Source of the DNA: Nitrosospira multiformis
GTDB lineage: Bacteria; Pseudomonadota; Gammaproteobacteria; Burkholderiales; Nitrosomonadaceae
Assembly: GCF_900111585.1 (NCBI RefSeq)
Contig: NZ_FOHI01000006.1
Location: 1-64,000 of the forward strand
Direction of reading: 5' to 3'
DNA length: 64,000 nucleotides
A program made the position numbers and the translations under genes. The notes below the pieces were generated by a model. It was not told where the DNA came from, did no database searches, and saw nothing but the letters and a program-made list of their open reading frames with translations. Of the stretch, positions 54,259 through 58,110 are shown piece after piece (the stretch's first letter is position 1; the number at the start of each line of letters is the position of its first letter).

Positions 54259-55080
54259 TCATCCCGCGCCTTGAGCCGTCTTCAGTTCCGATGTCAGGTG
54301 TGGGGCAATAACCTGCAACAGTTGGCCGAAGACTTTCGGATTACCCGCAACCACGTTGCCGCTTTGCAGATAGGTATCGTTGCCTTCCATGTCTCCTACC
54401 AGTCCGCCCGCCTCGGTAATGAGCAGGCAGCCAGCCGCCATATCCCAGGCTGACAGCCCGAACTCCCAGAAGCCATCGTATCGTCCTGCCGCGACGTAAG
54501 CTAGGTCGAGCGCGGCGGAACCCGGGCGCCGGATCCCCGCCACCCGGGGCATGATATCCTTGAACATGGCAAGGTAAGCCTCGGCATGCGTGAATTCGCG
54601 AAACGGAAAGCCCGTGCCGATCAGGCAGTCGCCAAGCTTAGTGCGCTTGCTTACGCGCAAGCGGTGGTCATTGAGATAGGCGCCTGCTCCACGGCTTGCG
54701 GTGAATAATTCGTTGGCAGTCGGGTTGTAGACCACTGCCTGCGACAAAACGTTTTTATGCATCAATGCGATCGAAACCGAGTAATGCGGGAAACCATGAA
54801 GAAAATTGGTGGTACCGTCCAGAGGGTCAATGATCCACTGATATTCAGACTTGCTAGGATCACCTTGAGCGCCGCTTTCTTCTGCTAGAATGGAATGGCT
54901 GGGATAGGCATCGAGCAGCGTCTCGATAACCGCGTTTTCTGCGGCGCCGTCTACTTCGCTGACAAAATCGTTGTGCGCCTTGCGCGAGACATTCAGTAAA
55001 TCCAGGTTCTGTGCAGCACGATTGATGATGCTGCCTGCGCGGCGCGCGGCCCTTACCGCGATGGTGAGCATGGGATGCAT
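54259..55080 (-). CDS. suhB: Inositol-1-monophosphatase SuhB
   Basis: A 273-residue magnesium-dependent phosphatase of the IMPase family. In E. coli SuhB also takes part in ribosomal RNA antitermination with NusA. Metal ligands are in ILAEESG and [25 protein letters not shown], and the C-terminal motif is [24 protein letters not shown]. The divergent arrangement with trmJ and then iscR is conserved in many beta- and gammaproteobacteria. Confidence 0.95.
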
Positions 55081-55204: not shown

Positions 55205-56107
55205 ATGAATCCGAGCGGGCGAAATGGCTACAAACTGACTGCTACGCTCGCACAGCCTCAGGAGGCCATCTCTAATGGAGCCTTTGATGGGCTATCCGGA
55301 TTAAATGTGAATCCCCTCCATCTGCTCGATAAAGTCCGAATTATCCTGAGCCATACCAGCCATCCCGGTAACCTCGGGGGAGCGGCCCGGGCAATGAAGA
55401 CCATGGGGCTGGATTCGCTCTATCTTGTGAATCCCAAGTTTTTCCCTGACAAGGAAGCTGAAAGACGGGCCACCGGCGCATTGGATATCCTCCATAAGGC
55501 AAAAGTCTGCGACACGCTCGATGAAGCGCTCAGCGGGACTGTTCTGGCAGCGGCAGTAACGGCCCGACCACGCGATCTCTCCCATGAAGTTTTTGATGGC
55601 CGGCAGGGCGCGGCCAAACTGCTCGATCTTGCGCAAAAGGATTTCGTTGCGCTGGTGTTCGGTACGGAAATGTCCGGACTTACCACGCTTGAGGTCAGCA
55701 AGTGCCAGATTATCATCCATATTCCAGCCAACCCGGAATATTCATCTCTCAATCTTGCCAGCGCTGTGCAGGTCATGGCGTACGAATTACGCACGGCCTG
55801 CATGGGTTTGGTGGAAACCACGCCTGCTTCGTCGACCCTGCGTGGCGGCGGGATGGCGGCCACGTTCGATGAAATCGAGTTGCTTTACGCTCACTTGGAG
55901 CAAGTCGCAATCAGTAGCGGTTTTCTCGATCCGCAGGAGCCGAAACGGCTGATGCAGCGCATGCGAAGGCTGTTTGCCCGCGCGCGGCTGGAAAAGGAGG
56001 AGGTCAATATATTACGGGGGATACTGAGCGCCTGTGAGAAGCGGATGCAGGCGAAGGCTGCCGCTTCCCTGCTTACTCCTGATGCTCCCGAATGCGAACG
56101 AAATTGA
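55205..56107 (+). CDS. trmJ: tRNA (cytidine/uridine-2'-O-)-methyltransferase TrmJ
   Basis: A 300-residue SPOUT-class enzyme that 2'-O-methylates position 32 of several tRNAs. Characteristic are VRIILSHTSHPGNLGGAARAMKTMGL, LYLVNPKFFPDKEAERRATGA, LVFGTEMSGLTTLEV and IPANPEYSSLNLASAVQVMAYELR. The ATG at 55205 gives a 40-residue N-terminal extension compared with E. coli TrmJ (246 residues). A GTG at 55307 with CCGGA seven bases ahead is an alternative start that would give 266 residues. cysE, often next to iscR in betaproteobacteria, is absent. Confidence 0.93.
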   Translation: MNPSGRNGYKLTATLAQPQEAISNGAFDGLSGLNVNPLHLLDKVRIILSHTSHPGNLGGAARAMKTMGLDSLYLVNPKFFPDKEAERRATGALDILHKAKVCDTLDEALSGTVLAAAVTARPRDLSHEVFDGRQGAAKLLDLAQKDFVALVFGTEMSGLTTLEVSKCQIIIHIPANPEYSSLNLASAVQVMAYELRTACMGLVETTPASSTLRGGGMAATFDEIELLYAHLEQVAISSGFLDPQEPKRLMQRMRRLFARARLEKEEVNILRGILSACEKRMQAKAAASLLTPDAPECERN

Positions 56108-56162: not shown

Positions 56163-56215
56163 ATAGTTGACCATGACAAAGGGGATTTATATACTTGATC
56201 AATGTTGTCGGGTAT
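56163..56215 (+). promoter_or_regulatory. iscR promoter with two IscR type-1-like operators
   Basis: TTGACC (56167-56172) and TATACT (56190-56195) with a 17-base spacer form a strong sigma-70 promoter starting near 56202. Two sites resemble the type-1 IscR consensus (ATASYYGACT-N5-AGTCRRSTAT). At 56163-56187 the left half ATAGTTGACC matches 9 of 10 but the right half is weak. At 56191-56215, ATACTTGATC-AATGT-TGTCGGGTAT matches 8 and 9 of 10. They cover the -35 box and the start point, as in E. coli iscR, so [2Fe-2S]-IscR should repress its own gene here. Confidence 0.65.
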
Positions 56216-56232
56216 TGGTTGTCGGGTATTGG
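56205..56232 (+). repeat. Perfect 14-bp tandem duplication in the iscR leader
   Basis: TTGTCGGGTATTGG occurs twice without a gap (56205-56218 and 56219-56232). The unit contains the right half of the downstream IscR operator, so the duplication creates a spare right half-site (56220-56229) 14 bases away. The rest of the iscR leader to 56417 has no other feature I recognise. Confidence 0.85.
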
Positions 56233-56417: not shown

Positions 56418-56891
56418 ATGCGGTTAACAACCAAGGGCCGTTTTGCAGTAACGGCAATGATCGATCTTGCGTTGCACAGCGCGGACGGGCCGGTTACATT
56501 GGCGGGTATCAGTGAACGTCAGAAAATTTCATTGTCTTATCTTGAGCAGTTGTTCGGAAAGCTGCGGCGCAGCAAGCTGGTGGGCAGTGTGCGCGGCCCT
56601 GGCGGCGGCTATCGCCTGACCAAACCCATGAACGAGGTATCTGTAGTAGACATTATTCTGGCTGTGGATGAGCCCATCGACGCCACCCAGTGCGGAGGCA
56701 AGGAAAACTGCCACAATGATCAGCGCTGCATGACCCACGATTTATGGGCGAACCTGAATGCGCGGATACGCGATTACCTGGCGCTGGTTACACTGGAGCA
56801 GCTCGTATCAAACCCCAAGGTGAAGGATATTGCTGTCTTGCAGGATTTGAGAGTCTGCTCCCCATCGCAACATCGTACAGTTCCTGCCTGA
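56418..56891 (+). CDS. iscR: Fe-S cluster-sensing transcription factor IscR
   Basis: A 157-residue Rrf2-family regulator. It begins MRLTTKGRFAVTAMIDLALH with a winged helix-turn-helix (LAGISERQKISLSYLEQLFGKLRRSKLVGSVRGPGGGYRL). The [2Fe-2S] ligands C92, C98, C104 and H107 fall at exactly the E. coli IscR positions. Holo-IscR represses isc genes; apo-IscR acts at other sites. The ATG at 56418 has GGGAG ahead; an upstream in-frame extension is not conserved. Two IscR-like operators lie in its own promoter. iscS follows 61 bases later. Confidence 0.96.
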   Translation: MRLTTKGRFAVTAMIDLALHSADGPVTLAGISERQKISLSYLEQLFGKLRRSKLVGSVRGPGGGYRLTKPMNEVSVVDIILAVDEPIDATQCGGKENCHNDQRCMTHDLWANLNARIRDYLALVTLEQLVSNPKVKDIAVLQDLRVCSPSQHRTVPA

Positions 56892-56952
56892 ACGGTAAGC
56901 CGGTGGTTTCAAGTCCGATTCTCCATTTCGACGAGTTTGAAGGATCCGGTCG

Positions 56953-58110
56953 ATGACTTACACCTATTTCGACCATAACGCCACGACTGCTGTCGATAAA
57001 ACCGCGCTTGATGTCATGTTGCCGTATTTCCAGGAGGAGTACGGCAATCCCTCCAGCCGGCATGCTCCTGGCATTGCAGCTCGCCGGGCAGTTGATCGCG
57101 CGCGTGAGCAGGTGGGGGATGCAGTGGGGGTGCAGCCATCGCAGGTAATTTTCACCAGCGGCGGGTCGGAAGCCAATAATCTGTTTATTCAGGGTGCCGC
57201 GGGTTACATGAAGCCGGGACAGATTGCGATAAGCGCGATTGAGCATCCCTGCGTGATGAAAACTGCGCAGGAATTAGCGCGGGCTTCGCGCGGAAGCTGG
57301 AATCTGCGCCGGCTGGCAGTCGATAATCAGGGACGACTGGATCCGGCTGACCTCGACGAGGCACTGTCGCATCAACAGTCGGGGCTGGTTTCAGTCATGC
57401 TGGCAAACAACGAAACAGGCGTGATTCAGGATGTTTCGATGGTGGCGGAGAAGGCCCGCGCGCGAGGTGCCTGGATTCACACGGACGCGGTGCAGGCGTT
57501 TGGCAAGATATCTGTCGATTTTGCCTCGCTCAATGTACATGCCCTGACACTGTCATCCCACAAGATTTACGGTCCCAAGGGCGCCGCGGCACTTATCATG
57601 GATAAGCGGCTCCTGCTCAAACCTCTTATCTACGGGGGGGGGCATGAAAGCGGATTGCGTTCGGGTACCGAAAACGTTCCCGCAATTGTGGGATTTGGCG
57701 TGGCGTGCGAGTTAGTCAAGAGACGAATAGCGGAACATACCACGCATATCTCGGCATTGCGCCAGCAACTGGAGCGGGGCCTGCTGGAAATGGGCGGGAC
57801 TGTTTTTGGTCTCGGCGCTTCCCGTCTGCCCAATACCTGCTATTTTGCGCTACCGGGTATCGAAGGAGATACTCTGGTAGTACGTCTCGATAAGGCGGGT
57901 TTCGCGGTGGCAAGCGGTGCGGCCTGTTCCAGTGTCAACCCCGGCCGAAGCCATGTGCTGGAAGCGATGGGGGTGGATCCCGCCCTGGCTCGTTGCGCTG
58001 TCCGGGTAAGTCTGGGCGCCTCCAATTCTTCGGAGCAAGTTGCTGATTTCCTTCGCGCTCTCAGTGCTATCGTGGGGGAACTGGAGCAGATGAGCGCACT
58101 TTCGATCTGA
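56953..58110 (+). CDS. iscS: Cysteine desulfurase (NifS/IscS-like)
   Basis: A 385-residue PLP enzyme that takes sulfur from cysteine for Fe-S clusters and thio-modifications. H98 (AIEHPC) and the PLP lysine K204 (SSHKIYGPKG) are present, and the catalytic C325 lies in VASGAACSSVNPGRSHVLEAMGV, a group-I type loop. It is shorter than E. coli IscS (404 residues), lacking the usual C-terminal tail that contacts IscU, so it may be nearer the NifS-like subgroup. The gene follows iscR, but iscU, iscA, hscB, hscA and fdx do not follow; a gene-free stretch of almost 700 bases comes next. Confidence 0.85.
   Translation: MTYTYFDHNATTAVDKTALDVMLPYFQEEYGNPSSRHAPGIAARRAVDRAREQVGDAVGVQPSQVIFTSGGSEANNLFIQGAAGYMKPGQIAISAIEHPCVMKTAQELARASRGSWNLRRLAVDNQGRLDPADLDEALSHQQSGLVSVMLANNETGVIQDVSMVAEKARARGAWIHTDAVQAFGKISVDFASLNVHALTLSSHKIYGPKGAAALIMDKRLLLKPLIYGGGHESGLRSGTENVPAIVGFGVACELVKRRIAEHTTHISALRQQLERGLLEMGGTVFGLGASRLPNTCYFALPGIEGDTLVVRLDKAGFAVASGAACSSVNPGRSHVLEAMGVDPALARCAVRVSLGASNSSEQVADFLRALSAIVGELEQMSALSI

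Follow-up and report, generated by a model that had tools for sequence, protein, structure and literature searches.

A conserved, putatively autoregulatory IscR-type promoter in Nitrosospira with a young, probably near-neutral duplication of an operator half-site

In Pseudomonas aeruginosa, iscR is autorepressed by [2Fe-2S]-IscR, and the excerpt of the report describing this promoter places its type-1 sites at -67 to -18, the second of them upstream of the -35 site and none over the transcription start (PMC3899308). The same excerpt quotes the published 25-bp palindromic type-1 consensus, ATASYYGACTRWWWYAGTCRRSTAT. In E. coli K-12, the two type-1 sites of the iscR promoter (A and B) score 24/25 and 22/25 at a spacing of 25 bp. 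Site B, ATAGTTGACCAATTTACTCGGGAAT, is the downstream one and lies over the -35 region, and the second strong site (24/25) stands directly upstream of it. Over the -10 element and the start, E. coli has only a left half-site, and its promoter contains no duplication. A protein-similarity search gave 80 IscR loci, almost exclusively betaproteobacterial, at which type-1 sites were most often spaced 28 bp apart. At the betaproteobacterial loci L063 and L077, three type-1-like sites were observed in a row 5' of iscR, with spacings of 25 and 29 bp, which combine the E. coli-like with the betaproteobacterial arrangement.

The iscR locus considered here lies in a 64-kb stretch of Nitrosospira DNA (the window), and its features are collected in Table 1. 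An earlier note on this DNA had taken the regulated gene to be iscR, and this identification was supported: the product, starting at the ATG at 56418, exceeds the cut-off of TIGR02010, the curated IscR equivalog model, and the [2Fe-2S] ligands C92, C98, C104 and H107 as well as the type-1 discriminator E43 (E. coli numbering) are all invariant relative to E. coli IscR. With PRK10857, a second IscR model, the protein scored 195 bits, under the cut-off of 275. The gene order suhB-trmJ-iscR-desulfurase matches the suhB-trmJ-iscR-iscS order of E. coli. The cysteine desulfurase gene, presumed to be the next member of the iscR operon, is under the cut-offs of both the NifS (530.75 bits) and the IscS models. 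In the 23 Nitrosospira genomes, no match to iscU or hscA exceeded the curated cut-offs, in searches that each placed 1 of the 14 control genomes over the cut-off. Taking iscU together with hscA in the genome as the mark of a complete ISC operon, no such operon was found in Nitrosospira by these models, and iscR with the desulfurase gene (56418-58110) appears to be what is left of an ISC locus alongside a suf system.

Table 1. Features of the iscR region, in window coordinates
Feature	Position	Strand	Remarks
suhB-like gene, before trmJ	54259-55080	-	
trmJ, 5' neighbour of iscR	55205-56107	+	TIGR00050, 206.9 bits (cut-off 167.15)
Type-1-like IscR site over -35	56163-56187	+	18/25; well-matched left half, ATAGTTGACC, and degenerate right half
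Sigma-70-like promoter, TTGACC-17-TATACT	56167-56195	+	Sequence pattern
Type-1 IscR site ATACTTGATCAATGTTGTCGGGTAT over -10/start	56191-56215	+	21/25; kept in 23/23 Nitrosospira
First repeat unit, GTTGTCGGGTATTG	56204-56217	+	Holds the intact right half-site, invariant (100%) across the genus
Second repeat unit plus one base	56218-56232	+	5' leader; carries the spare right half-site, 56220-56229
iscR	56418-56891	+	157 aa; NCBIfam TIGR02010, 213.7 bits (cut-off 207.55)
NifS/IscS-like cysteine desulfurase, 3' of iscR	56953-58110	+	Aminotran_5; best NifS, 384 bits

Every 25-mer of the window was scored against ATASYYGACTRWWWYAGTCRRSTAT, which is the E. coli consensus. The earlier note had proposed two type-1-like operators, one on the -35 box and one on the start of transcription, which is predicted near 56202 from the position of the -10 element. 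The placement held, the second site covering the -10 element and the start; the operators themselves were supported strongly for that second site, the top score of the whole 64 kb, and weakly for the first, whose left half scores 9/10 and right half 5/10. The weaker site, ATAGTTGACCATGACAAAGGGGATT, resembles ATAGTTGACCAATTTACTCGGGAAT of E. coli in sequence and position and corresponds to site B, and the TTGACC shared by the two fits a -35 hexamer. The second strong site of E. coli, in contrast, lies upstream, whereas that of the window lies over the start, 28 bp 3' of the -35 site, which by its spacing is the betaproteobacterial layout. With this spacing, and with only a left half at the E. 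coli start, the statement that the arrangement is "as in E. coli" was half right, valid for the -35 site and not for the start site. The P. aeruginosa promoter is alike in having two type-1-like motifs over polymerase recognition elements and, unlike the window, has no duplicated half-site in the excerpt of PMC3899308.

The operator block is present in all 23 Nitrosospira genomes, sampled as one genome per species. Column conservation was computed over the 20 Nitrosospira promoters without a duplication, after one base had been deleted by script from those of G019 and G020, which have 1 nt inserted between the two sites. The mean was 0.97 and 0.83 for the left and right halves of the -35 site and 0.93 and 1.00 for those of the start site; just 3' of the start site it was 0.45, and the first GTCGGGTATT marks the exact end of the conserved block. 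Constraint on both operators is therefore probable. A conserved IscR-type promoter, autoregulatory by homology, is documented in ammonia oxidisers that, by the models used, have no iscU or hscA and possess a suf operon.

The claim that a 14-bp tandem duplication copies the right half-site was borne out. The two copies of GTTGTCGGGTATTG are perfect, the second ending at 56231 with the period extending to 56232, and 56204-56232 is the longest perfect tandem duplication of the window. Nothing comparable occurred in 20 first-order Markov sequences of the same length, which had on average 0.05 tandem duplications at periods of at least 10 and none at periods of at least 12. In the predicted transcript, the duplication covers approximately +3 to +31; it leaves the intact operator unchanged, and the spare half-site, scoring 9/10, lies 14 bp (about 1.3 turns) 3' of the intact half-site, at about +19 to +28. 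The register that would use it, 56205-56229, reaches 14/25 with a left half of 3/10, and a score of 14/25 or more is reached by some 1,390 of the window's registers, so that this value is background and the second repeat copy yields no new 25-bp operator.

Among the 23 Nitrosospira genomes, the 14-bp duplication was found only in the genome of the window (G000) and in G007, whose second copy reads GTCGGTAT, with one G lost; G003, the closest sister of G000, has one copy. The locus tree is ((G000,G003),G007) with a support of 1.0, on which the history would be either one gain plus one exact loss or two gains. The identical register in G000 and G007 favours one gain, and recombination may also have been involved. 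The change had been described as recent, in agreement with the single copy in G003 and with the lack of this form of the duplication in 21 of the 22 other Nitrosospira; a repeat kept unchanged throughout the family, which the earlier note had set against its own view, is not what the genomes show, as it is sporadic. A separate duplication, TTGTCGGGTATTA-GGGG-TTGTCGGGTATTA, is present about 85 bp before iscR in G010 (L021), where the operator layout is that of the window with an extra TTGTCGGGTATTA just 3'. It differs from that of the window in its 17-bp period and the GGGG between the copies, as an independent event, and its register using the spare half scores 13/25.

Of 30 family spacers, 7 have exact direct repeats of at least 11 bp within 45 bp, and four of the seven repeats lie outside the operator; the 64 kb of the mostly coding window have 3. 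Replication slippage in a tolerant spacer is thus the simplest explanation. Three of the seven fall in the operator block, which accounts for roughly one fifth of what was scanned, and a binomial value of about 0.15, estimated by hand, roughly indicates that this is not unusual. Further short direct repeats with periods of 10-16 were noticed in the trmJ-iscR spacers of G016, G005, G002, G018 and G032; the repeat in G002 duplicates AACAAAATAGT, with which the -35 operator begins, and is a partial copy of the left half-site. Spaced TTGTCGG pairs were considered family-wide and discarded as mostly chance, a reversed control pattern having matched many genomes too. No similar DNA was found in the plasmid collection. 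In the literature, the names Nitrosospira multiformis and IscR were found together in one paper, a denitrification review whose title and opening of the abstract deal with matters other than regulation by IscR.

Taken together, we consider it likely that normal autorepression by holo-IscR operates here and that a young, probably near-neutral slippage duplication has been added in the 5' leader. By homology, [2Fe-2S]-IscR dimers would occupy the -10/start site and, more weakly, the -35 site, and so would exclude RNA polymerase from the iscR promoter. Under a shortage of Fe-S clusters, the IscR cluster would be lost or oxidised and the sites vacated, allowing transcription of iscR and the desulfurase gene. 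A slippage-type event would recently have copied 14 bp across the downstream right half-site, leaving the original operator whole and placing the spare half-site in the non-conserved leader. Since it has no left partner, this half-site would form no second dimer site and is probably near-neutral and easily lost, although it may exert a weak modulatory effect. The striking repeat in the iscR promoter would then be a young, unstable variant, not a conserved device. A counter-point to neutrality is that G010 gained its own, independent copy of this half-site and that the copies are intact in both G010 and G000; with the partial copy in G002, this recurrence could hint at selection.

A functional spare half-site, to which another IscR dimer, or a single subunit, would bind and thereby stabilise occupancy of the start-site operator and tighten or retune autorepression, appears unlikely. 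The letter-perfect copy in G000, the independent copy in G010 and the three-site promoters of L063 and L077 speak for it. Against this stand the missing left partner, the 14-bp offset, unlike the 28-bp spacing commonest in relatives, the overlap of 56205-56229 with the intact site, and the lost base in G007 and the absence of the copy from G003. The earlier suggestion that an extra contact could alter IscR affinity found no support, given the 14-bp offset, a left half of 3/10, a mean column identity of 0.45 in the leader versus 1.00 in the first copy, and the decay in G007. If the spare half-site does matter, the trio G000, G003 and G007 offers a natural comparison of one and two units.

An effect of the duplication on transcription or on the mRNA instead of through IscR, with 14 nt added to the initially transcribed region and a change in promoter escape or leader structure, is quite unlikely. 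The position of the duplication at the beginning of the predicted transcript fits such a role, as does the distance between the -35 site and the ATG, which ranges from 97 to 487 nt across the genus; this wide variation in leader length, however, also suggests tolerance, and shuffled sequences fold almost as well as the leader (z -1.8). A structured leader RNA was dropped as a candidate on the same z value and with no match to an Rfam family. That half-operator duplication is a recurrent, selected tuning of IscR autoregulation in Nitrosospira, as at least two independent copies with periods of 14 and 17 bp might suggest, is decidedly improbable. Draft assemblies are error-prone at tandem repeats, but an artefact of assembly or sequencing is rejected as having next to no probability because G007, a separate genome, carries the duplication too, in the identical register but with its second copy degraded.

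Another IscR, sharing 66% identity with the first, was observed in G000 at L168:3185-9504 (contig 12), about 27 kb past the iscR of the window. It stands first in an operon that comprises iscA/HesB-like, sufB, sufC, sufD, sufS and sufU-like genes, assigned by reading the translations. Like the window promoter, that of this iscR2-suf operon (L163) has one type-1 site over the -35 and another, 28 bp from it, over the -10/start; unlike the window promoter, the promoter drives a suf operon, and its sites are near-perfect (24/25 each) and carry no duplication.
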